Source: Sporomusa sp. KB1 (GTDB lineage: Bacteria > Bacillota > Negativicutes > Sporomusales > Sporomusaceae). From it: a stretch of 64,000 nt of DNA. Positions 15,250 through 53,346 of the stretch are shown here, in pieces (position 1 is the stretch's first letter; every line of letters starts with the position of its first letter). The notes beneath the pieces are model-generated. The model did not search any database. It was not told where the DNA came from and worked only from the letters and a program-made list of their open reading frames with translations. A program made the position numbers and the translations under genes. The DNA lies in the NCBI RefSeq assembly GCF_007830295.1, contig NZ_VLKC01000002.1, forward strand, positions 902,940-966,939. Direction: 5' to 3'.

Positions 15250-15930
15250 ATGAAAAAAAATGTTTTCGTAGGATTTATTTTAATTGTATTTTTGTTTGTG
15301 CCTGTCATTGGTCGGGCCGCGGATAATTCTCAGCAGCAACAGCAGCAACAGCAAGAACTTGAGCGTAAAAAGAAACAACAACAGCAGCAATCCCCGCAGC
15401 AACAACAACGTCCTCAGCAGAAGCAACCCCCGCAGCAACAGCAACGTCCTCAGCAGAAGCAACAACCCCCGCTATATCATCCACAACCGAATCATCAACA
15501 ACAGCAACAAATACTAGAGCGTCAAAAGCAAATTCGTAGGGAAAACCGCCCACTACCCTACCGCCCACATACCGAGTTTCACCCAGATCCAAAACACCGT
15601 CCACCTCATCACCCATATTTCACAGACATACAACTACATCAAAGGCAGGAACATTACCGTCATCAATGGTTACATTGGTATGAGTTATATCCAAATAAGA
15701 GCCCAGAATTTTTTACATTAATTGTTTCTGAACGGCCTTATTATTTAATGAATGTTCGCCCGGGAGTATGGTATTATAATAGTGAAACAGTAAACTTTGT
15801 AGTTCCGCAAGAATATGTTGTTGTGTCCCAAGACCAAGTATGGTATGCCGGAGATTTCGTCGAATCCGAGGAATTCGTGTTGTTCACCGAGGAAGCATAC
15901 TCTGCCAATGAATCTGAGGACGCAGAATAA
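15250..15930 (+). CDS. Glutamine/proline-rich secreted protein
   Basis: 226 aa. Residues 1-24 are a signal peptide (MKKN, hydrophobic core, GRAA). Residues about 27-95 are low-complexity: runs of Gln, with a repeated unit of the form QQQRPQQKQPP occurring at least twice. A His/Pro/Arg-rich stretch follows (to about 135), then a C-terminal region with aromatic-rich, possibly beta-stranded sequence (RPYYLMNVRPGVWYYNSET) and an acidic end (SANESEDAE). Ribosome site GAAAGGAAG. Function unknown; likely exported to periplasm or envelope. The repeats are CAG/CAA mixtures, so the length could vary by slippage. Confidence 0.7.
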   Translation: MKKNVFVGFILIVFLFVPVIGRAADNSQQQQQQQQELERKKKQQQQQSPQQQQRPQQKQPPQQQQRPQQKQQPPLYHPQPNHQQQQQILERQKQIRRENRPLPYRPHTEFHPDPKHRPPHHPYFTDIQLHQRQEHYRHQWLHWYELYPNKSPEFFTLIVSERPYYLMNVRPGVWYYNSETVNFVVPQEYVVVSQDQVWYAGDFVESEEFVLFTEEAYSANESEDAE

Positions 15931-23186: not shown

Positions 23187-25095
23187 ATCGGGTAGGAAGC
23201 TGACCCTTAGTGAGTCAGCCGACCTCCCACAGAACCGTACGTACCGTTCGGTATACGGCTCCTCCTATGTTTACGCACAAACAGACTCGTAGTAATCAAG
23301 AAAATTGAAATATCCTGCCTTCTTAAGTCTCTCGGCAGAGATGGCTTTGGCAACAATCGGGTTACGGGCAACATGCCAGTACCCTTTTCTTATGTTTGCA
23401 CCTTCCCATGCTACCCAGTCCACTATTCCCAGTTTCTTAAGCATAGCGTATCGCGTCCTTATCCTTTTCCACTGTTTCCAGACAACCATCCGGATACGTC
23501 TCCGTAACCACTGATCTGTTGTTTTCAGTAGATTCTTCATATCTGCAAGTTTAAAGTAGTTCACCCATCCAGTTACAAACTGTTTGAGTTTTTCCTTCCT
23601 CTGCTCATATCCCATTCCGTTGCTTCTTGATGTAATTTCGCGAATCCTCGCTTTCATCTTTATAATGCTTTTGGGGTGTACTCGCAGACCCACATTTCTG
23701 TTCTTGTTGATATAGAACGCGTAACCTAAGAATTTGACCTTGCCTACGTAGGCTACTGCTGTCTTTTCCTTGTTCACTTTGAGGAATAATTTCTTCTCTA
23801 TGAACGGGATTAGATTTTCCAGTGTCCTTTGGGCCGCTCTTTTGCTTTTGCAGAAGATGAGCATATCGTCTGCATAACGGACGAACCTGTGCCCTCTTCG
23901 TTCAAGTTCCTCATCTAGCTCATTCAGAAGGATATTTCCACAAATTGGACTTAGAGGTCCCCCTTGCGGTACTCCTAGTTCCGTTTCCTCGAATCTGCCC
24001 ACACGCGTAATAACTCCCGCTCTGAAATATTTATGAATTAGAGATATGACTCTCCCATCCTTTATACTCCGTGACAGTACCTCTATCAGCTTGCTTTGGT
24101 TCACAGTATCAAAAAATTGTTCCAAATCCATATCCACAACGTACTTATACCCGTCGCAAATATTATTCTGACATGCTTTGAGAGCATCATGGGTGCTTCT
24201 TCTTGGTCGGAATCCGTAGCTGTTGTTCGAGAACTTTGGCTCATAGATTGGCGTCAAAACCTGCGCTATTGCCTGCTGTATGACTCGGTCTACGGCTGTT
24301 GGTATTCCCAACTTTCTCATTTTCTTCCCGCCATCTTTGGGTATCTCCACCCTCAGTACAGGTTGAGGTCGGTATTTTCCGTCCTTGATGGTTTGCCGGA
24401 TTTCCTCCCCGTTGTCTTTGAGATATGATAGAAGATCTTCCACCTGCATCCCATCGACTCCGCTTGCCCCTTTGTTCTTCTTAACCCGCTTGTATGCTTG
24501 GTTAAGATTATTTGGGGCAAGGATTTCTTCCAGCAGTCCACATTCTAGTCTGTTGGCATGGGTGCTGTTATTTTCAGTTATCCCTGAACCAGTAAGCGCT
24601 CCCGCATACTCTTTGTGCTCCGCACTATCCCTTTGCGGCCAACCACCTTTGTCACAGTGTTTTCTGCTATTGTTCCGATTCCTGGTAACATTCATTTACT
24701 AACACCTCCAAGGGTTCCGCCCTTCACAGTACCGTCGACGGTACTGCTAGTATGGCTTCATCTGACTCCTCACGACAAATCTTATTTCAACCGGCTTTCG
24801 CAAATATGCTTCCACCGTCCGTGAGGCCTCCCCGGGTAAGAACGCAGTCTTTCGCTCCATCTACCTGCCGCATTTACACAGACTGATTCCGTGTAGTTAT
24901 TGGACTTCGACTTGTTTAGCAGCCTTATCCTCAATTTGTGCCTGATGCGGTTTCTGTTCGTCAGGCCAGAGATTTGCCGCCGCCTTCCTTCACACTCCAT
25001 CTCACGATGGACGCACTTGGCCTTGGCTATACACTTCCCACTACCGGGCGTGTTCGGGACTTTCACCCGTTAGACTGCGCCCATGCCGGGCGCAC
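23187..25095 (-). mobile_element. Group IIC intron, complete, about 1.9 kb
   Basis: The 5' end starts GTGCGCCCGGCATGGGCGCA, as in bacterial class C introns (the Oceanobacillus iheyensis type). Internal landmarks include GGGTGAAAGTCCCGAACACG, GAAAGACTGCGTTCTTACCC and the domain V stem GCCGTATACCGAACGGTACG; domain VI ends ...TTCCTACCCGAT at about 23187. An intact maturase gene lies in domain IV. The 5' exon is a rho-independent terminator hairpin, the known insertion site preference of class C introns. The 3' boundary is good to a few bases. A tiny frame (MNNK, 23149-23163) with AAAGGAG follows directly. Confidence 0.9.
23271..24695 (-). CDS. ltrA: Group II intron reverse transcriptase/maturase
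   Basis: 474 aa. RT domains 0-7 include YGFRPRRSTHDAL, GVPQGGPLSP at 241-250 and the catalytic YADD at residues 274-277 (RYADDMLIFC). The maturase X domain follows (KVKFLGYAFY to FVTGWVNYFKLADMK) and the C-terminus has a basic DNA-binding-like region (WLRRRIRMVVWKQWKRIRTR). No HNH endonuclease, as expected of class C introns. The gene is intact. It sits inside the intron at 23187-25095. Confidence 0.95.
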   Translation of the reverse strand: MNVTRNRNNSRKHCDKGGWPQRDSAEHKEYAGALTGSGITENNSTHANRLECGLLEEILAPNNLNQAYKRVKKNKGASGVDGMQVEDLLSYLKDNGEEIRQTIKDGKYRPQPVLRVEIPKDGGKKMRKLGIPTAVDRVIQQAIAQVLTPIYEPKFSNNSYGFRPRRSTHDALKACQNNICDGYKYVVDMDLEQFFDTVNQSKLIEVLSRSIKDGRVISLIHKYFRAGVITRVGRFEETELGVPQGGPLSPICGNILLNELDEELERRGHRFVRYADDMLIFCKSKRAAQRTLENLIPFIEKKLFLKVNKEKTAVAYVGKVKFLGYAFYINKNRNVGLRVHPKSIIKMKARIREITSRSNGMGYEQRKEKLKQFVTGWVNYFKLADMKNLLKTTDQWLRRRIRMVVWKQWKRIRTRYAMLKKLGIVDWVAWEGANIRKGYWHVARNPIVAKAISAERLKKAGYFNFLDYYESVCA

Positions 25096-42798: not shown

Positions 42799-43104
42799 CT
42801 AACCCAATATCTTCTTAACTTCGGCTAAAATGATGGCTCCGCCCATCGGGTTATACCCTTGCGGCGGAATAATGGCCACAGGAACATTATATTCTGCCGC
42901 GGCCTCCTGGAAAAAGGCAGCACGGTGCCGCACCTGAGGCGCTACCAACGCTATATCCCAGCCATTTTTGAGCTCCTCGCCAAATTCACCACTGCCTACC
43001 GACTTAACAGTAACCACCTGACCCGTCTTAGCGGCTTCCTTTTCAATTGCTTTAACTACAATAGAACTCGACATGCCGCCAGAACATACCAATAATAACT
43101 TCAT
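42799..43104 (-). CDS. PTS lactose/cellobiose-type IIB component
   Basis: 101 aa. Active-site Cys in LLLVCSGGMSSSIVVKAIEK, the P-loop of cellobiose IIB, followed by GWDIALVAPQVRHRAAFFQE. Donates phosphate to the sugar bound by IIC. Its ATG overlaps the murQ stop by 4 bp. Confidence 0.94.
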   Translation of the reverse strand: MKLLLVCSGGMSSSIVVKAIEKEAAKTGQVVTVKSVGSGEFGEELKNGWDIALVAPQVRHRAAFFQEAAAEYNVPVAIIPPQGYNPMGGAIILAEVKKILG

Positions 43105-44024
43105 CTTTCCATCCTCTTTTCATCTATGATCGCCCTACGAATAAAACCACCAACTGCCGCCAGATAGCAGGAAGCCTGTACGGCAGAACAATCCCGTTTA
43201 ATCATGACAATAGCTGTCTTGGGATTCATCCCTGCCTGAACAAGAATTTCGCCAGCCCGCTCACAGCTTACTCCTGTTGCCTGCGCGACAATCTGTTTGG
43301 CTCTTTCGACCAGTTTGGCATTAGTCGGCTTTACATCGACCATTAAATTGCCGTACACCTTTCCCAACCGAACCATGGTTGCCGTTGTCAGCATATTAAG
43401 TACCAGCTTCTGGGCCGTGCCAGCCTTCATCCGGGTAGATCCGGTGATTACCTCCGGCCCAACCAATGGAGTAATGGCAAGCTTAGCCACCTTGCCAATC
43501 TCCGAATTCGGAGTGCAGCTTATGGCGACCGTACAAGCGCCAACCGTATTGGCATATTTCAAGCCACCAAGGACATAAGGAGTTCTGCCGCTGGCTGCCA
43601 GACCAACAACCACATCCTTCGCTGTAAGTTTCACTAATTGCAATTGAATAACTGCGCCGCTAATCTCGTCTTCGGCTCCTTCTATCGCCTTTACCAGAGC
43701 TGTATCACCCCCGGCAATTAACCCGATTATCCGATCCGGCTCAACGCCAAAGGTCGGCGGACACTCGGCGGCGTCCAGTACGCCTAGCCGCCCGCTGGTT
43801 CCGGCGCCTATGTAAATCAATCGTCCGTCAGTTTGCAGTGCTGCTGCTATTTTATCAACCGCTAAGGCAATATGGGGTATTTCCTCTGCCACCGCCGCAG
43901 CCACTGTCTTGTCCTCCGCATTGATGGCTTCGAGCAATTGGCTTGTAGTCAGCTTATCCATATTCACCGTTTGCGGGTTGACCGCTTCGGTAAGCAAGTC
44001 TTCTATTTTTACACCCAATCTCAT
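43101..44024 (-). CDS. murQ: N-acetylmuramic acid 6-phosphate etherase
   Basis: 307 aa from the ATG at 44024, which aligns with the E. coli MurQ start; an upstream in-frame ATG at 44063 overlaps the kinase gene. SIS-domain motifs: RLIYIGAGTSGRLGVLDAAE, CPPTFGVEPDRIIGLIAGGD, ITGSTRMKAGTAQKLVLNML. Cleaves the lactyl ether of MurNAc-6-P to GlcNAc-6-P and D-lactate. Its presence fixes the operon as cell-wall recycling. The C-terminus has the usual NPKTAIVMIK region. Confidence 0.94.
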   Translation of the reverse strand: MRLGVKIEDLLTEAVNPQTVNMDKLTTSQLLEAINAEDKTVAAAVAEEIPHIALAVDKIAAALQTDGRLIYIGAGTSGRLGVLDAAECPPTFGVEPDRIIGLIAGGDTALVKAIEGAEDEISGAVIQLQLVKLTAKDVVVGLAASGRTPYVLGGLKYANTVGACTVAISCTPNSEIGKVAKLAITPLVGPEVITGSTRMKAGTAQKLVLNMLTTATMVRLGKVYGNLMVDVKPTNAKLVERAKQIVAQATGVSCERAGEILVQAGMNPKTAIVMIKRDCSAVQASCYLAAVGGFIRRAIIDEKRMER

Positions 44025-44041
44025 CGCCCCCAACCGAATTT

Positions 44042-44962
44042 TCAAACCTTGTTCTGCACCCATTCAAGCCCCAGCCGTACAGCCCCTTCTACCGGTTGGG
44101 TTTTACAAGCTACAAGGTTGGCCCTTTTAGCCAGAGCCTCTTCCAGCCGCTCACGAACCATCAGAATATTGGTTACTATGCCGCCATACATGCATACTTG
44201 CACTGGTTCTCCCCAACCAAAACCACGGGTGATAACCGATTCTACCAAGCTGGCAAGCGCATCGCCTGCTTGCTTTACTATCTCGATCGCCACTTGGTCT
44301 CCCTGCTTGGCTGCGTCTCCTACCACCTGGGCAAATGCTGCAATATTGCCTTTCGACGTTGATTGGTTATTAATATAGCCAATCATATCATTCCAGCTTG
44401 TTAGGCCTGCGTATTCCATTATCATGTCCATTAATACCGTAGCTTTATCGCGCCCCTCAGCAGCCCGAATCCCCCTTACTACTGCCTGACGGCCAATTGC
44501 ATAGCCACTGCCTTCGTCACTGGCAAGGTGTCCCCAGCCACCGGCACGAATGACAGCGCCCTGCCTATTTATCCCATAAGCAATTGAGCCTGTCCCGGCA
44601 ATCAAGACAATGCCTTCGGCTTTCCCTAAGCCCGCGACCAGCGCAATTTTGGCATCACTGTTTATCAGATAGTTGCAAGTTAGACCTAATCCTGCCAGTG
44701 CCCCTATAACAATATCCTTGTCTCTTATCCGATCAGCACCGGCCAATCCAAGGCTTACTACTAGTAAATCCACCTTCTTTAAATTAAGGCTAACGGCCAG
44801 TTCGTCAATGATACTAGCAATAACTGCCGTAAATTTGGCCACCCCGGTAATGTGGTAGTTGCTAGGCCCCTTTTCCACCCAGCCTAAAACCTTGCCGGTA
44901 ACATCTGCAGCACAGCCTACGGTTTTAGTTCCGCCACCATCTATCCCTATAACCCATTGCAT
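44042..44962 (-). CDS. BadF/NagK-type N-acetyl amino-sugar kinase (MurK-like)
   Basis: 306 aa, ASKHA fold. Phosphate-1 loop IGIDGGGTKTVG at residues 5-16, then LAGADRIRD, LIAGTGSIAYGI (phosphate-2) and GWGHLASDEGSGYAIGRQAV. Phosphorylates GlcNAc and/or MurNAc; next to murQ this suits MurK-like function on sugars released by NamZ or PTS cleavage. Start taken as the second ATG (44962), placed five bases after AGGTGA. It is the first gene of the operon. Confidence 0.87.
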   Translation of the reverse strand: MQWVIGIDGGGTKTVGCAADVTGKVLGWVEKGPSNYHITGVAKFTAVIASIIDELAVSLNLKKVDLLVVSLGLAGADRIRDKDIVIGALAGLGLTCNYLINSDAKIALVAGLGKAEGIVLIAGTGSIAYGINRQGAVIRAGGWGHLASDEGSGYAIGRQAVVRGIRAAEGRDKATVLMDMIMEYAGLTSWNDMIGYINNQSTSKGNIAAFAQVVGDAAKQGDQVAIEIVKQAGDALASLVESVITRGFGWGEPVQVCMYGGIVTNILMVRERLEEALAKRANLVACKTQPVEGAVRLGLEWVQNKV

Positions 44963-45044
44963 CATTATCACCTGACATAACATTTCTACTTCTCAGCAAT
45001 ATTTGACACAGACCACTTTCTTTCCTGTTACTTTGTTCGAAAAA

Positions 45045-47147: not shown

Positions 47148-47999
47148 TCAGCCTAAATATGATGCATTAGCAGATAGATTATTGGCATAATATCTAGCCA
47201 ACGGTGTAATATCCAAAAGACGAAATTCACATTTAGTTGTGTCAAAAAACTTACCTGTGATATCGCGGACCTGTTCGGGACGATTGGAGAAATACAAGTG
47301 GCTGGAGCCTTCGCCGTTGATTTTTAGCCCGTTGTTCTCTGCCAGATAATCCTGGACTTGGCGCGCCGTTTCTACCGCCGGATCAATGATGACCACTTCT
47401 TCGCCCATAACTTCCTGCAACAAGAGCGTAATATATGGATAGTGGGTACAAGCCAAAATTAGCGTATCGATATTTGCCTCTTTTAGTGGCGTTAAATAGT
47501 GATAAGCGGCTTGACGCAATTCGTCTCCTTCAAGGCTGCCGGCTTCAATCAGTTGGGCAAAGAGTGGACAGGCACGTGGAAATACAACGGCACGCGAGTC
47601 CAGCGCTAGGATATCGGCGCGGTGTTTGCCACTGGCTATCGTGGTTTCCGTGGCAATAACCCCAATACGCTTGGATTTACTGTCGCGAAGCGCTGGCACT
47701 GCACCCGTGTTGTTACCAATTAGTTCAAAGTTATAATTCTTAGAAAGCATAGCAGTTCCTAAGACAGTAATGGTATTGCAGGCCACAACGCCAACTTTGA
47801 TACTACAAAGCGACATGAGTTGCATAATTTCATCTACAAAGTCGCAAATTTCTTCTTTGGTCCGGGAACCGTAAGGTGCACGAGCAGTATCGCCAAAGTA
47901 GATAATATTTTCTTTAGGCAGTAGCTGACGTAGTTCCTTGTACACGGTAAGTCCGCCAATGCCTGAATCAAAAATACCGATAGGTAAGTCTCTATGCAT
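47148..47999 (-). CDS. murI: Glutamate racemase
   Basis: 283 aa from the ATG at 47999, which has GAGGGAA upstream; a longer frame would run into the leader RNA. IGIFDSGIGGLTVYKELRQL at residues 7-26, YFGDTARAPYGSRT, catalytic Cys74 in VVACNTITVLG and the second Cys in ILACTHYPYI. Makes D-glutamate for peptidoglycan. The substitution GNNTGAVPAL, where most MurI have a GVIEPG-type loop, is unusual. Directly preceded by copy 1 of the three-copy leader element. Confidence 0.9.
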   Translation of the reverse strand: MHRDLPIGIFDSGIGGLTVYKELRQLLPKENIIYFGDTARAPYGSRTKEEICDFVDEIMQLMSLCSIKVGVVACNTITVLGTAMLSKNYNFELIGNNTGAVPALRDSKSKRIGVIATETTIASGKHRADILALDSRAVVFPRACPLFAQLIEAGSLEGDELRQAAYHYLTPLKEANIDTLILACTHYPYITLLLQEVMGEEVVIIDPAVETARQVQDYLAENNGLKINGEGSSHLYFSNRPEQVRDITGKFFDTTKCEFRLLDITPLARYYANNLSANASYLG

Positions 48000-48048
48000 T
48001 TTATATTCCCTCACATCCGTCAAAATTGTTATAACACCAATAAGAATA

Positions 48049-48187
48049 GAGAGACCAAGAATAGTGAGCAAACTCACATATCTTGGTCTCACCTATCTAG
48101 GTAAAATGGAGAGCTTCCAAATACCAATAAATAAGACTTTATTTAATTTATCCGCAGAATTACATATTAGACTGAACGGTACAACTT
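48049..48187 (-). promoter_or_regulatory. Leader element copy 1 (murI)
   Basis: Read on the minus strand: a degenerate promoter (TTGTAC, weak -10 AATTCT), AAAGTCTTATT, TTGGTA, a small hairpin TGGA-AGCTC-TCCA, then a strong terminator-like stem GAGACCAAGA...TCTTGGTCTC with inner GTGAG/CTCAC, and a weak T-tract. It lies between the DUF3870 gene and murI. Base pairs differ from copies 2 and 3 in a compensatory way. Confidence 0.75.
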
Positions 48188-48188
48188 C

Positions 48189-48527
48189 TCAGATTTCATT
48201 TTTCTTAATTATCATATACCGATTATGCGCGTCTTTCAGGGCGACAATCAATGTTTTTTGCACCAACCCAAAGAACCGTTGACGAATGTGCTGTACTATA
48301 TCATCAATTCCTGTGACCAAGTTCTGGCCGACAAGCATTGACAGGATGAAATCCCCCGTCATATCCCGAACAGTATTACACGTCGCATCAACTATAATAT
48401 CTGTTTTCTTGTCAACAACCATACTCAAAAAAAACATACTGTAGAGAATGGAAATGGCATCTTCCTTACTCGGTTTTGCCTGCCCGGTGATAAAAACTGT
48501 ACTTGGCGCATATTCCACATTGCTCAT
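48189..48527 (-). CDS. DUF3870-family protein, copy A
   Basis: 112 aa from the ATG at 48527 (MSNVEYAPSTVFITG). Conserved DUF3870 regions: VFITGQAKPSKEDAI, VDKKTDIIVDATCNTVRDMT, GDFILSMLVGQNLVTGIDDI and RFFGLVQKTLIVALKDAHNR. Function of the family is unknown. It sits after the symporter gene and directly before leader element 1. Roughly 75-80 percent identical to copy B by eye. Confidence 0.82.
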   Translation of the reverse strand: MSNVEYAPSTVFITGQAKPSKEDAISILYSMFFLSMVVDKKTDIIVDATCNTVRDMTGDFILSMLVGQNLVTGIDDIVQHIRQRFFGLVQKTLIVALKDAHNRYMIIKKNEI

Positions 48528-48594
48528 TCCTATGTCAATCCCCTTTCTAAAAAATTCCGAGGAAATACTGACTCGCAATCCGCTATTTAATCGA

Positions 48595-49857
48595 TCAAAT
48601 AATGCTTGACTCGGCTTGGTCTGCATCATCAGACAAGCCCTTGCCAAATAACCTGTTGAGAACAATTGTACACGTGACATTGCCAAACACATTTATGACA
48701 CACCGCACACCATCAATAAGCCTATCTACACCCGCGATAATGGCAATTCCCTCGACCGGAAGTCCTAAAGTAGTAAGGATTAGGGATATTACAACCAGCG
48801 ATGCCGAGGGAACGTTAGCAGTGCCTTTATTAGCGATTACTGCGGTAATGAGAATGGTGATGAGGGTGGGGCCATCTAAGACTACACCATAAACATCGCA
48901 AAGAAAAGATACGGCTAAGGCTTGATAAAAAGCAGATCCATCTAAATTAAAACTGTATCCTAAAGGAATAGAAAATGCAGAAATTCGATAATTAATGCCC
49001 ATTTCATCTAATGCTTCAAGAATAGATGGCAATGTAACCTCAGATGAACCAGTCGCAAAAGCCAATAGCAGCCCTGTTGATATCTTCTTAAAGGTATCTA
49101 ATGGGTTGTAACCAAGGATAATAAGCAAAATGCAGAAGACACCAGTGAGAACCAGCAACCCCAGGTATGCTGCCATAACTAATTGGGCTAGTGCCATAAC
49201 CATCTTCATTCCTTGCGTTGCAAAAAGCCAGGCCATAATGGCACCAGTGGCAAACGGTGCAAACGAGATTACCCCCATCGTCATTTTGAGCATTGTATCT
49301 AACAGTGCTTCAAGAATATCGGCAATTGGCTTAGCTCGTTCTTTAACTGCGGCCAAAGAAAGGCCAAATGCAATGCAAAAAACCAAAAAAGGAATAATTT
49401 TATGATTTGCTGCTACGCTTACTACGTTGTCAGGAATCATATCAAGAAAAAATTTTACCCAGTCAATCGAACCTGCTAAATTATTGGGTATGCTGCCGGT
49501 AGCTTCTATCGGCACACCAATGCCAGGGTGAATGAGTTGGTTAAGGCCGATTCCTACTGCCATGGCGATACCAGTGCCAAGATAAAACCAGCCAAAGGCA
49601 GTTAAACCCATTTTACCCAGTCGCTTAATATCAGCCCCCATTCGATAAGTTGCTAATGTAACGGCAGCAAATAGTAGTGGGATTATGACCATCTTTATGC
49701 CTTTAACAAAAGCTGTGCCGATAGGCTCTAGTAATTTACCAAAGCTTGGCCACATAGCACCTATAAAACTACCAACTATAAGCCCTACGATGATTTGAGC
49801 CCACAACGGAAAGCGCTCAGTTTTTCTAGACGAAGACTCTGCTGGTAACGCATTCAT
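48595..49857 (-). CDS. Dicarboxylate/amino acid:cation symporter (GltP/DctA/SstT family)
   Basis: 420 aa, eight membrane helices with two re-entrant loops. Family motifs: serine-rich loop ATGSSEVTLPSILEAL, NLDGSAFYQAL (equivalent of NMDGT) and GVDRLIDGVRCVINVFGN. Imports glutamate, aspartate, serine/threonine or C4-dicarboxylates with cations. Between glyA and a DUF3870 gene; serine or glycine-related substrates would fit the neighbourhood. Confidence 0.92.
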   Translation of the reverse strand: MNALPAESSSRKTERFPLWAQIIVGLIVGSFIGAMWPSFGKLLEPIGTAFVKGIKMVIIPLLFAAVTLATYRMGADIKRLGKMGLTAFGWFYLGTGIAMAVGIGLNQLIHPGIGVPIEATGSIPNNLAGSIDWVKFFLDMIPDNVVSVAANHKIIPFLVFCIAFGLSLAAVKERAKPIADILEALLDTMLKMTMGVISFAPFATGAIMAWLFATQGMKMVMALAQLVMAAYLGLLVLTGVFCILLIILGYNPLDTFKKISTGLLLAFATGSSEVTLPSILEALDEMGINYRISAFSIPLGYSFNLDGSAFYQALAVSFLCDVYGVVLDGPTLITILITAVIANKGTANVPSASLVVISLILTTLGLPVEGIAIIAGVDRLIDGVRCVINVFGNVTCTIVLNRLFGKGLSDDADQAESSII

Positions 49858-49969
49858 TTAGATCACTCCTTAATATTTTGTGGCTTATTCGCAAAATATA
49901 CTACGAGAAACTAAAGTAGAAATCGCGATTCCTAGGTATTATTGCTCGAATCCATAAGAATCAAAATGC

Positions 49970-51250
49970 TTACCGTTCCTTAGGCAGCCATTCATCTGCA
50001 AAAAGCGGATATTTTGCAGCTATCTCGGCAACTTGCTTACGGATTTTTTCTAATATATCAGGCTGATTATGATTTTGCAAAGCTCTTCCTACAAGAACTC
50101 CGATGTCATACATTTCCTTTTCTTTTACACCGCGTGTAGTTAAAAATGGGCTGCCAATACGTATACCACTGGATATATTCGGCGGCAAAGGATCGAACGG
50201 TATCATGTTTTTATTTGTGACAATCCCCACCGAGTTCAATACGTCCTCTGCCTCTTTTCCTGATGGAATTAATGCAGTAACGTCAGCAACAATGAGATGC
50301 GTCTCTGTACCGCCGGTAATTAACCGCATTCCCTGCGATAAACAACCTTTGGCAAGTGCTTGTGCATTCCGGAGAACTTGCTTGCTATAAAGCTTAAATT
50401 CTTCTGACATGCACTCTTTGAAAAGTACTGCCCGCGCAGCAATCATATCCATTTTAGGCCCGCCCTGTATGTTAGGAAATACCGCTCTGTCAATCTTACC
50501 TGCTAATTCCTGCCGGCAAAGAATGACGCCACACCCCCGCGGCCCTCGCAATGTTTTTTGCGTCGAAAAGCTAACAACATCAGCATGCGGTACAGGCGAT
50601 GGAATTACCCCGGCGGCTACTAAGCCGACATCATGCGCAATATCGACCCATAAAAATGCCCCAACCGATTTGGCAATAGCAGCAAAGCCAGCATAATCAA
50701 TCAATCTTGGATAAGAAGAAGCACCGCATACGATGATTTTGGGTCTATGCTCTTCCGCGAGTTTTCTAACTTCCTCAAGATCAATACGTTCTGTTTCTTG
50801 ATTTACGCCATATTGAACAACATTGTACATTTTTCCACTGACATGAAATGCTGCACCATGGCTTAAATGCCCGCCATGACTTAAACTCATGGATAAAATA
50901 GTATCACCTTGCTGCAAAAGCCCACGTAAAATAGAAATATTGCCAATAGTAGCATTCGCAGCTTGTAGATTAGCATGTTCACAACCAAATAGCAGTTTGA
51001 GTCTTTCTATCGCTAAATTCTCAACGTCATCGGCAAATTCACAACCGCCAACAAAACGCTTCCCTGGATAGCCTTCTGTATTCTTATTGGTAAAAACGCT
51101 GCCTTCCAGGAAAGTCGCCAGCGGAGAGGCATAGTTTTCTGATGCAATCAAACCAAGAGTATTTCTTTGTCTGTCTTCTTCTTTTTGAAGCAACTTTGCC
51201 ATTAAGGGATCAAATCGTTTAAGCATATTCATCATTTTATCCTGTTCCAT
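49970..51250 (-). CDS. glyA: Serine hydroxymethyltransferase-like protein, copy 1
   Basis: 426 aa. Fold and motifs of SHMT: ENYASPLATFLEGSVFTNKN, EGYPGKRFVGGCEFADDVEN, VCGASSYPRLIDY, WVDIAHDVGLVAAGVIPSPV, PLP Lys in STQKTLRGPRGCG and GIRIGSPFLTTRGVKEKEM. The usual THKT before the Lys is TQKT. It interconverts serine and glycine with THF, or a related beta-hydroxy amino acid such as alpha-methylserine. Preceded by leader element copy 2 and a tiny frame. GAGGTGTC ribosome site. Confidence 0.88.
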   Translation of the reverse strand: MEQDKMMNMLKRFDPLMAKLLQKEEDRQRNTLGLIASENYASPLATFLEGSVFTNKNTEGYPGKRFVGGCEFADDVENLAIERLKLLFGCEHANLQAANATIGNISILRGLLQQGDTILSMSLSHGGHLSHGAAFHVSGKMYNVVQYGVNQETERIDLEEVRKLAEEHRPKIIVCGASSYPRLIDYAGFAAIAKSVGAFLWVDIAHDVGLVAAGVIPSPVPHADVVSFSTQKTLRGPRGCGVILCRQELAGKIDRAVFPNIQGGPKMDMIAARAVLFKECMSEEFKLYSKQVLRNAQALAKGCLSQGMRLITGGTETHLIVADVTALIPSGKEAEDVLNSVGIVTNKNMIPFDPLPPNISSGIRIGSPFLTTRGVKEKEMYDIGVLVGRALQNHNQPDILEKIRKQVAEIAAKYPLFADEWLPKER

Positions 51251-51308
51251 AAAGACACCTCTTTCAATTTTAATAGTTGTTACGGTAACTCTCTCCTTAT
51301 CAACACGA

Positions 51309-51335
51309 CTACGTATTTCCTTTGTATCTTTTCAT
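51309..51335 (-). CDS. Tiny open frame with consensus ribosome site before glyA
   Basis: MKRYKGNT and stop, preceded by TTAGGAGGTGATT, a near-perfect Shine-Dalgarno. It lies between the terminator hairpin of leader element 2 and glyA. It could be a leader peptide or a relic of a gene. Very short, so low confidence. Confidence 0.3.
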   Translation of the reverse strand: MKRYKGNT

Positions 51336-51360
51336 AATCACCTCCTAACAACTCCTTGAA

Positions 51361-51503
51361 AATAAAAAGACCAAGAATAGTGAGATTTGCTCACACATCT
51401 TGGTCTTAAATATCTCAGTAAAATGAAGAACTTTCATCTACCAACAAATAAGACTTTATTAAATTTGTTTTTATTATAGCATATTAACTGAAAATTTCAA
51501 TTA
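51361..51503 (-). promoter_or_regulatory. Leader element copy 2 (glyA)
   Basis: Minus strand: promoter TTGAAA (51500-51495), 16-bp spacer, TATAAT (51478-51473); then AAAGTCTTATT, TTGGTA, hairpin TGAA-AGTTC-TTCA and the strong terminator stem AAGACCAAGA/TCTTGGTCTT (51407-51367) with inner GTGAG/CTCAC, followed by TTTTTATTTT. Transcription would begin inside the DUF3870 stop region and stop before glyA unless the terminator is prevented. Confidence 0.85.
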
Positions 51504-51838
51504 TTTTGTTGGATAATATTTTTCTTAACCATCATGTACCGGTTGTGCGCGTCCTTCAAAGCAACAATCAATGTTTTTTGTACCAAGCCGAAAAAACGAT
51601 GCTGGATATCCTGCACCATAGCATCAATTCCAGTTGCCAAGTTCTGTCCGACCAGTAATGATCGGATAAAATCCTGGGTCATGTTCCGGACAGAATTACA
51701 CGTCGCATCTGCAATAATATCTGTCTCTATGTCGACGATAAAACTCACAAAAAATACATTGTAGACACTAGAAATGGCGTCTTCTTTACTTGGTTTTGCC
51801 TGACCGGTGATAAAAACTGTACTCGGCGCATATTCCAT
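51497..51838 (-). CDS. DUF3870-family protein, copy B
   Basis: 113 aa, starts MEYAPSTVFITGQAKPSKED with GGGGGTAA upstream. Paralogue of the copy at 48189-48527, same conserved core RFFGLVQKTLIVALKDAHNR. Its stop codon lies inside the promoter of leader element 2. Function unknown. In this locus each DUF3870 gene is directly followed by a leader element. Confidence 0.85.
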   Translation of the reverse strand: MEYAPSTVFITGQAKPSKEDAISSVYNVFFVSFIVDIETDIIADATCNSVRNMTQDFIRSLLVGQNLATGIDAMVQDIQHRFFGLVQKTLIVALKDAHNRYMMVKKNIIQQNN

Positions 51839-51900
51839 GTTGTTTTACCCCCTTTCCACTACTGCTTATTACAGCGCTAGACGCGCTACGTCTATCAGGC

Positions 51901-52039
51901 TTACTTCAGAATATTAACTTGCTCAAAATCATGCAATGGTATATCAATAACATGTTCCGCCAATCGTTTAGCTCGGTGGGTCGGCGGAAAAGCAGAAGCG
52001 TCGTACTGCCTGCTGGTCGGCATTGGCCAACAGATCCAT
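51901..52039 (-). pseudogene. Decayed gene behind leader element 3
   Basis: Starts MDLLANADQQAVRRFCFSAD and a stop, then in another frame KRLAEHVIDIPLHDFEQV with NILK and a TAA at 51901. It was once the gene controlled by leader element 3, now truncated by deletion. Family not recognised. Confidence 0.4.
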
Positions 52040-52072
52040 ATTTTTTAGAACTTATCTCCTAACGACGCCTAA

Positions 52073-52213
52073 AAATAAAGAGACCAAGAATAGTGAGACT
52101 TCCCCACACATCTTGGTCTTAATTATCTCGGTAAAATGAAGAACTTTCACATACCAATAAATAAGACTTTATTAAATTTATTTTATAATAGCACATTTGA
52201 CTGAAAGTTACAA
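52073..52213 (-). promoter_or_regulatory. Leader element copy 3 (decayed gene)
   Basis: Minus strand: promoter TTGTAA (52213-52208), 17-bp spacer, TATTAT (52190-52185); then AAAGTCTTATT, TTGGTA, hairpin TGAA-AGTTC-TTCA, terminator stem AAGACCAAGA/TCTTGGTCTC with inner GTGGG/CTCAC (a G-U pair replaces A-U), then TTTATTTTT. Same layout as copy 2. Confidence 0.82.
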
Positions 52214-52267
52214 TTGTTTTTTAGATGATATTTTTTTAAAAAATATCATCTCATTGTAAAAAAATGC

Positions 52268-52302
52268 AAATGCTGTACACCGTAATTTGGTGTACAGCAT
52301 TT
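52268..52302. terminator. Bidirectional terminator
   Basis: AAATGCTGTACACC (52268-52281) pairs perfectly with GGTGTACAGCATTT (52289-52302). The minus strand continues GCATTTTTTT, ending the hydrolase-like pseudogene. Confidence 0.85.
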
Positions 52303-52387
52303 ACGCTTTTTATAGTATCAAAAGATCTTATATCAACCACGCGAAATCTGAATTTGCGGGCGGCGAGGGCGGATTCGAGCACGGTCA

Positions 52388-53346
52388 CTACTTTAGGAAA
52401 TATTCTTTCAGTATTTTAGAATAGATCTTATCATCCATTAAAAAAGCATCATGACCGAATTTCGAACTAACAATTTTTTTGTCTACTTCAGTAAAATTAC
52501 TAAGCCTGGACTCTGTTTCTTCAACTACCCACACTGGAAAAAGGATATCTTCCTCACATCCAACCAAAAGTACTTTTGGCACAGAAGGGCAATCGGCCAG
52601 CGGTAAGTTGTGAAAATTTAAATTGAAATTTCTCATAGCATGTAAAAAACACAAATAACTGCTACTATCAAATCTGGAGACAAACGAGTCTGCTTCTTCC
52701 TCTAGGAAGTGACTGAGTTGCCAATTTATATCGCCAATTTGATGCTCAACAAAAAATTTCTCTCCCACATAAGAAATGTTGGCTAGTTGTCGTGCCATAT
52801 TTAATCCTTTGTCTCTTGGCAACATCCTAATTAACGCATCTTGAATATCCATTAAGCCTTGTCCAATAAATGATAGTGTAACACCTGCATTGAGACATAC
52901 AGCCTGTTGAACCTTCTCCGGATGGGCTGCCACCCACTCAAGAACCACCATGCCGCCAAGGGATCAGCGTGCCATCTATCAATCTCCAGCTCTTCTTGCA
53001 GCTTTTGTTGGCAGAACACGATGTCGGCAATAGATGGCGAAGAAATATCTGGTGATCCAGTACTTCCAAAGCAACCACCAAGATTATTTGCACAAACAAT
53101 AAAGTATTTGTTCGTGTCTAAAGGCTTACCCGGTCCTACCGCCCATTCCCACCATCCTGGAGTGTCATTAGCACTATGGGCAGCTACATGCGAACTGCCA
53201 GAAAAACCATAAATTGCCAGTAGTGCATTGTTCTTTGCTGAGTTAAGTTCCCCATACGTCTCGTATGCTAACGTTATTTGTGTGACATATTTAGAATACG
53301 TTACAGGTACTTTACTTGTTGTAAAATACTTGACAACACTAACCAC
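52388..53346 (-). pseudogene. MetX-like (homoserine O-acetyltransferase family) alpha/beta hydrolase, frameshifted
   Basis: The N-terminal part (53346-52960) has ITLAYETYGELNSAKNNALL and YFIVCANNLGGCFGSTGSPD, both MetX-like. A deletion near 52958-52965 breaks the frame just before the nucleophile elbow: the sequence passes from DRWHA into another frame coding SLGGMVVLEWVAAHPEKV. The C-terminal part is intact (Asp in EEDILFP, His in KFGHDAFLMDD). The missing bases would encode the GG of the GGSLGGM elbow. It would otherwise be an acyltransferase or esterase. Confidence 0.75.

Follow-up and report, generated by a model that had tools for sequence, protein, structure and literature searches.

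A 64,000-nucleotide (nt) stretch of the Sporomusa sp. KB1 genome (contig NZ_VLKC01000002.1, positions 902,940 to 966,939; hereafter the window) carries on its minus strand three copies of a leader RNA that stand beside genes for DUF3870 proteins (PF12986). Predicted folds give good support for reading this leader as an intrinsic-terminator attenuator, in which an antiterminator and a terminator exclude each other and are conserved in relatives. We put at about even the chance that the copies act as conditional transcription terminators and that the DUF3870 protein encoded next to each recognises its antiterminator. The exclusive structures predicted here, their conservation and their adjacency to DUF3870 are supported by comparison and folding, and termination is very probably regulated in cells; the chance that DUF3870 is the factor binding this RNA would fall a little short of even. 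The DUF3870 link is the main new point, the first-pass annotation of this DNA having named DUF3870 genes only as places to search. That annotation had proposed an undescribed cis-regulatory promoter-leader-terminator RNA in three minus-strand copies; the copies were present where it had placed them, and further copies in relatives together with the lack of an Rfam match support the proposal.

Folded up to the strand shared by the two structures, the leader forms one long predicted hairpin, GUCUUA...GGU...small hairpin...ACC...UAAGAC, with a bulge on the 3' side, and the fold of the whole leader gives the terminator AAGACCAAGA...UCUUGGUCUU. AAGAC is common to the antiterminator (GUCUUA...UAAGAC) and the intrinsic terminator, which makes the two structures mutually exclusive. 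For copies 1, 2 and 3, folding z-scores were -3.9, -2.9 and -3.7 for the antiterminator and -6.3, -4.4 and -4.0 for the full leader, and the apical loops predicted in these copies are 5 nt long. Across the 11 leaders of this kind (GTCT type) described below, predicted energies ranged from -14.2 to -22.9 kcal/mol for the antiterminator and from -17.0 to -25.0 kcal/mol for the terminator, which was stabler in 10/11 leaders, by 0.7 to 7.0 kcal/mol, and less stable by 1.4 in one; the antiterminator, formed first, would thus need help or speed to prevail. An antiterminator pairing TTGGT with ACCAA, as earlier suggested, was absent from the predicted fold, its place being taken by the longer GUCUUA/UAAGAC hairpin with GGU/ACC beside the small hairpin. 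Two compensatory changes had also been claimed. The change from TGAA/TTCA to TGGA/TCCA in the small hairpin was confirmed, whereas that from AAGACC/GGTCTT to GAGACC/GGTCTC holds between copies 1 and 2 and is only partly compensatory overall, copy 3 reading AAGACC/GGTCTC with an A-C mismatch. Covariation among the four closest copies alone was not significant (228/500 shuffles reached the count of doubly changed pairs), and the case therefore rests on relatives. A conserved leader peptide was considered and rejected, no start codon being kept, by eye, across the 11 aligned leaders.

The 107-108-nt cores of the three copies and one copy from another species showed a mean column identity of 91%. 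The core pattern had three exact matches in the Sporomusa sp. KB1 genome, all in the window, and 24 when up to three mismatches were allowed, versus 13 for a reversed control pattern. In the same-genus genome G009, a leader occupies the matching place, between DUF3870 and a serine hydroxymethyltransferase (SHMT)-like gene 88% identical to that of the window. A covariance model built from the three window copies and the G009 copy was searched against 380 genomes of the class. Such a search had been suggested in the first-pass annotation, which held that a lack of further copies would speak against its proposal; eight further copies were found in seven other genomes (E 2.3e-26 to 1.4e-8), some of them in other families of the order. 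In all, 17 matches gave 11 leaders in eight genomes, three being those of the window; three antisense matches on the same leaders (one in G009, two in our own genome, G000) and those in G086, G019 and G081 (26-32 bits, in loci without a DUF3870-like open reading frame (ORF) by eye) were dropped. Six of the seven GTCT-type leaders outside the genus lie directly 3' of DUF3870, and the seventh (G300) heads a cluster containing DUF3870. Six stand before a 2,4-diaminopentanoate dehydrogenase-like gene (the one that was scanned has the Pfam domain but stays under the NCBIfam equivalog cut-off, and the five others resemble it by eye), and one precedes a sodium/glutamate symporter gene. When the 11 leaders were aligned by sequence only, 93.8% of the antiterminator cells paired, versus 29-57% with the partners slid. 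No convincing GTCT-type match was found in 45 DUF3870-bearing genomes elsewhere in the phylum, one match of 26.8 bits being taken as chance. A set of genome contigs gave 60 stretches in a protein scan, none confirmed, and 0 exact pattern matches; viral contigs gave 32 stretches in a protein-profile scan, none confirmed, and four loci in an exact-pattern scan, 0 of which matched the RNA model.

A second DUF3870 clade has a 3' leader of its own (GCTG type), different in sequence but built to the same plan: GCUG-C-UUUGUUUA...UAAAUGAA-AUC-CAGC, in which CAGC is the start of the 5' arm of the terminator. This leader was found behind 28/28 genes of the clade read in context, and those genes form a clade of their own with a support of 0.93. 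A model was built from 13 of these leaders, a listing of terminators having served only to spot sister leaders. Scanning the 380 class genomes gave 49 matches. Those kept were the 33 in sense orientation that reached 45 bits; dropped were eight antisense matches on the same leaders, a G317 match of 37.9 bits that does follow a DUF3870 gene, a match of 35.3 bits in our own genome (by eye the terminator half only) and six others of 33-40 bits. Of these 33 matches, 26 lie 52-198 nt past a DUF3870 domain, and 29 of the 30 genomes containing them also have DUF3870. The RNA counts are lower bounds, since the filters of the genome-wide scans were strict and some leaders that the model detects at a locus supplied directly were missed.

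Covariation in the GCTG type comprised 12 pairs changed on both sides (two in the antiterminator-only helix, four in the upper stem and six in the terminator), a result reached in 0/500 shuffles. The antiterminator-only helix pairs at 86.7% of positions in 33 distinct leaders, versus at most 81.1% in 1000 re-pairings, and at 87.5% in the 24 distinct leaders outside model building, versus at most 80.2% in 1000 re-pairings; this test drew on 44 model matches with no pairing filter on that helix, 7/44 partners were misplaced by inner repeats, and the model itself favours pairing. An earlier, stricter but biased version of the test gave 97.7% paired; this value and the loop counts of that version are inflated, its pattern having fixed in advance both the letters of the loop and the first two pairs, and each row needing at least 6/8 pairs (44/105 regions were admitted). 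The internal loop in the 13 model sequences reads 5'-C (11/13) opposite 3'-AYC (13/13). Comparison of the leaders supports the view that the predicted antiterminator is kept by selection. By eye, four GCTG-type leaders located apart from DUF3870 (L222, L223, L225 and L226) lie before beta-lactamase-like, OppA-like and creatininase-like ORFs.

In a draw of 338 genomes from the phylum, 46 of them with DUF3870, the GCTG model gave three matches of at least 39.7 bits outside our own genome, all in DUF3870-bearing genomes: one directly 3' and one directly 5' of a DUF3870 gene, and a third in front of a gene that by eye is dipeptide-epimerase-like, in a genome with DUF3870 elsewhere. The other three of the six matches were dropped (one in G406 with 32.8 bits, which by eye overlaps a racemase-like ORF; an antisense one in G468; and the one in our own genome). 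Given DUF3870 loci directly, the model found 3' leaders in six genomes where the wide scan had missed them (L238-L242 and L244, not L243; 39.6-46.1 bits), and in one of these P1 is changed from GCUG/CAGC to ACUG/CAGU. Behind other DUF3870 genes of the phylum, in other classes, stand leaders built alike whose shared strand is GGCC or GCCA; a coenzyme A (CoA)-transferase-like gene was found after one such leader by scanning and after several others by eye. A strict three-strand descriptor detected the plan after 28/96 DUF3870 genes versus 7/647 other ORFs of the same loci (P ~1e-20), bearing in mind that it was written after several leader types had been seen, that the loci are related, that one of the seven control hits is the G300 leader itself and that one positive (L259) is unlike the other 27. 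By eye, locus L189 (G008, ~15400-15780) holds a third kind of leader, GCTTG...CAAGC plus a terminator, apparently present as a tandem pair between two DUF3870 genes. At L163 and L176, which come from another family of the class, the DUF3870 gene has behind it a hairpin that resembles a terminator but is unrelated in sequence, and next an SHMT-like gene (scanned at L163, by eye at L176), the gene order seen in the window.

DUF3870 was detected in 77/380 class genomes with 137 matches, 61 of which were read in context, mostly the top scores first, plus the two of the window. RNA type follows the DUF3870 tree: over 102 proteins it changes seven times, versus at least 37 times in shuffles, and the GTCT, GGCC and GCCA types form one clade each. 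The RNA labels were set by hand (L257 and L264 by sight alone; L189, L163 and L176 counted as 'none'), and repeating the tree with L241 relabelled and the DUF3870 proteins of G003, G299 and G313 added gave the same result. Both DUF3870 types occur together in five genomes (G009, G300, G306, G309 and G312), and there each type has its own kind of RNA next to it. DUF3870 is proposed as the operator of the switch because of its adjacency, the clade-specific RNA types and these genomes with both.

In the window, the minus-strand order is copy 3, DUF3870 gene a, copy 2, the SHMT-like gene, the symporter gene, DUF3870 gene b, copy 1 and the glutamate racemase-like gene. Both DUF3870 genes score far above the curated PF12986 cut-off of 22 bits. 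The first-pass annotation had correctly placed murI behind copy 1 and glyA, the SHMT-like gene, behind copy 2; copy 3, however, leads not into a decayed gene, as it had stated, but after 234 nt, with no minus-strand ORF of at least 60 amino acids (aa) in between, into the intact DUF3870 gene a. Promoters had been described for all three copies, that of copy 1 as degenerate. Those of copies 2 and 3 were found, and copy 1 has none at the place matching them; the region holds 18 promoter-like sites versus 12.5 expected, so that only the copy-2 promoter stands out.

Positions of the leader copies, promoter-like sites and genes of the locus within the window
Feature	Position	Strand	Details
Copy 3 leader RNA	52072-52179	minus	antiterminator ~52167-52116, terminator ~52120-52080, T-tract to 52072; 131 bits, as one of the four sequences that built the covariance model
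Copy 2 leader RNA	51359-51466	minus	antiterminator ~51454-51403, terminator ~51407-51367; 122.9 bits
Copy 1 leader RNA	48043-48149	minus	antiterminator ~48137-48086, terminator ~48090-48051; 121.9 bits
Copy-3 promoter-like site TTGTAA-17-TATTAT	52185-52213	minus	9/12 consensus positions; weak alone
Copy-2 promoter TTGAAA-16-TATAAT	51473-51500	minus	11/12 consensus positions; overlaps the end of the DUF3870 gene
DUF3870 gene a	51497-51838	minus	113 aa, intact; 3' of copy 3, directly 5' of copy 2; PF12986 110.7 bits
DUF3870 gene b	48189-48527	minus	directly 5' of copy 1; start picked by eye within longer ORF 48189-48692; PF12986 106.7 bits (longer ORF)
SHMT-like gene	49970-51250	minus	3' of copy 2; PF00464; above the NCBIfam cut-off of NF000586
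Sodium:dicarboxylate symporter-family gene	48595-49857	minus	follows the SHMT-like gene; PF00375; below NCBIfam subfamily cut-offs
Glutamate racemase-like gene (murI)	47148-47999	minus	3' of copy 1; start picked by eye; PF01177; above the TIGR00067 cut-off

Other features of the genome were recorded as well. Two more SHMT-like paralogues, 45% and 67% identical, lie within 25 kb of the first (G000:C1:962285-963508 and 975823-977097), and by eye the 67%-identical one comes after an aspartase/fumarase-like ORF. A tRNA-like sequence, seen by eye, stands immediately 3' of the genome's third DUF3870 gene (L035, G000:C1:4740913). Two overlapping minus-strand ORFs in different frames at 52388-53346 resemble a frameshifted alpha/beta hydrolase that by eye is homoserine acetyltransferase-like; one of them has a sub-threshold Pfam match only. 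A few kb from the leaders, 43101-44983 (minus) holds genes for a MurNAc-6-phosphate etherase and for an N-acetylglucosamine-kinase-like protein that scores below cut-off.

We propose that the leader RNA would first fold into the antiterminator hairpin GUCUUA...GGU...ACC...UAAGAC. While this hairpin is held, RNA polymerase would read on into murI, into the SHMT-like and symporter genes, or into DUF3870 gene a; once it opens, AAGACCAAGA would pair with UCUUGGUCUU and transcription would stop at the T-tract. The most likely holder would be the DUF3870 protein encoded beside the RNA, a small RNA-binding antiterminator recognising the bulged hairpin and reporting how well the cell is supplied with glutamate, D-amino acids or murein peptides. 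Both the signal and the direction in which it acts are inferred. The first-pass annotation had suggested an amino acid such as D-Glu, Ser or Gly; the sensor may be the RNA, DUF3870 or another component. Glutamate, D-amino acids or murein peptides are our leading guess for the signal because the scanned downstream genes mostly point there: glutamate racemase, PepT-like peptidase, amidohydrolase, LD-carboxypeptidase, an SHMT-like gene and dicarboxylate or glutamate symporters, along with a gene of the enolase superfamily that scores below cut-off and has L-Ala-D/L-Glu epimerases as its nearest match. Related leaders also stand before a CoA transferase and an acyl-CoA synthetase, two genes that do not fit this theme.

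Several observations weigh against the role proposed for DUF3870 or for the switch itself. GCTG-type RNA occurs without DUF3870 of the matching type in four genomes: the DUF3870 proteins of G003, G299 and G313 all group with leaderless DUF3870, and G095 is without any DUF3870. Such RNA is also carried apart from any DUF3870 gene in G309, G312 and G645, the DUF3870 proteins adjoining GCTG-type RNA at L232 and L233 fall far from the GCTG clade, and 49 of the 102 tree tips are DUF3870 without an assigned leader of these types. Vertical inheritance of whole operons would likewise make RNA type track the protein tree. Neither a structure nor a known RNA-binding relative of DUF3870 emerged from a profile search of PDB sequences (best E 0.2, kinases, taken as chance), from a Pfam scan of three DUF3870 proteins (no other family at E up to 5) or from AlphaFold, whose models of the two window proteins were unusable (predicted local distance difference test score (pLDDT) 49.8). 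Covariation in the GTCT type is weak alone, with 47/500 shuffles reaching the paired percentage, 96/500 the covariation score and 27/500 the doubly changed pairs, and only two pairs are changed on both sides in that alignment. A single-sequence arm-pairing test did not separate DUF3870 terminators from controls (0.14 vs 0.10 at P <= 0.05), the terminator finder being too lax and returning 1427 other terminators in 93 loci.

The four genomes with sister RNA and no matching DUF3870 type, one of them lacking DUF3870 altogether, make a ligand-sensing RNA a serious rival. The leader would then be a metabolite riboswitch whose bulged antiterminator hairpin binds a glutamate-, D-amino-acid- or murein-peptide-like ligand, with DUF3870 merely in the regulated pathway, and the nearly invariant internal loop of the GCTG type and the common theme of many scanned downstream genes are consistent with it. 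For an aptamer, however, one hairpin with a 1 x 3 loop would be small, and the leader sequence varies by DUF3870 clade (GTCT, GCTG, GGCC, GCCA), where one ligand would be expected to keep one aptamer; with the CoA transferase and acyl-CoA synthetase also among the downstream genes, we regard a riboswitch as rather unlikely. The same four genomes could point to another protein, which would bind the antiterminator as BglG/LicT or ANTAR proteins do elsewhere, and the arrangement is that of known protein-bound antiterminators. CAT_RBD (PF03123), however, is missing in our own genome, and of 31 RNA-bearing genomes searched (33 known) 21 lack it and 10 have it, in a search that did not extend to the ANTAR and HutP families; BglG-type proteins were rejected as a general partner on this ground, and the binding of some other protein appears distinctly improbable. 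Copies 1 and 2 each begin right behind a DUF3870 gene and have its 3' end in common, so the repetition stems in part from duplication of a unit made up of DUF3870 and leader. This unit, the frequency of strong terminators and the negative arm-pairing test would suit ordinary constitutive promoter-terminator DNA duplicated with the DUF3870 gene, its upstream hairpin having no regulatory role. We consider this very unlikely, given that the leader is conserved across families, that compensatory changes occur in a helix outside the terminator, and that in copies 2 and 3 a terminator lies between the promoter-like site and the coding sequence.

In leaders of catabolic operons, the RNA-antiterminator (RAT) hairpins of the BglG/SacY/LicT systems overlap the 5' arm of an intrinsic terminator, and the regulator gene is often nearby. 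The switch proposed for DUF3870 shares this hairpin-over-terminator plan and the neighbouring gene; however, the window leader is unlike the RAT consensus, and no CAT_RBD protein is encoded in its genome. HutP attenuation of hut operons offers an analogue, a small amino-acid-related protein acting on a leader terminator; as regards HutP the Pfam scan of the three DUF3870 proteins, which matched no family but their own, is an indirect comparison. ANTAR systems use paired hexaloop hairpins; the apical loops predicted in the window copies have 5 nt. Riboswitches with intrinsic-terminator platforms have similarly exclusive antiterminator and terminator folds, but the scanned leaders have no Rfam match at the gathering score and the candidate aptamer is very small. 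At that score, the only matches of Rfam release 15 in the window were group II intron pieces (RF02001, RF00029 and RF01998 at 23187-25011, minus), and at E up to 5 there was no credible match over 47900-52400. In line with the absence of T-box and known riboswitch features noted in the first-pass annotation, these window scans gave no leader match, and a T-box leader was rejected because its covariance model had no match. The loci of 12 relatives gave TPP and tmRNA only, both elsewhere in the loci, and at E up to 0.1 those of 10 relatives gave RsaF and ylbH, far below the gathering score, ylbH overlapping the L232 leader at E 0.095.

Another cis-regulatory RNA candidate of Negativicutes, the ldh2 (SRC-18-2) motif located before Ldh_2 genes, differs in having a three-stem junction and a ribosome-binding-site platform (PMC8632094). 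In PMC4387736, the one paper found to name DUF3870 or PF12986, PF12986 is assigned to a Bacteroides protein with structure 3kog; the DUF3870 profile does not match 3kog, and the numbering or membership of PF12986 may have changed since. A literature search outside subscription papers and preprints found nothing joining antiterminator, antitermination or terminator to racemase, epimerase or diaminopentanoate dehydrogenase.

The presence of this switch and of related ones beside DUF3870 genes in many bacteria suggests an undescribed gene-control system. More broadly, and with somewhat less than even confidence, DUF3870 proteins could be small antitermination regulators that bind RNA, a family spread across the phylum in which every subfamily has co-evolved with a bulged hairpin of its own (GTCT, GCTG, GGCC, GCCA) overlapping the terminator of the neighbouring operon, in an undescribed form of protein-RNA attenuation of amino-acid, murein-peptide and CoA-transfer operons. 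The analysis offers a role that can be tested for a widespread domain of unknown function, and it describes leader RNAs without an Rfam match. If the RNA senses alone, it would be a new candidate riboswitch of glutamate, D-amino-acid or murein-peptide metabolism; were DUF3870 the regulator, the system would represent a new kind of protein-RNA antitermination.

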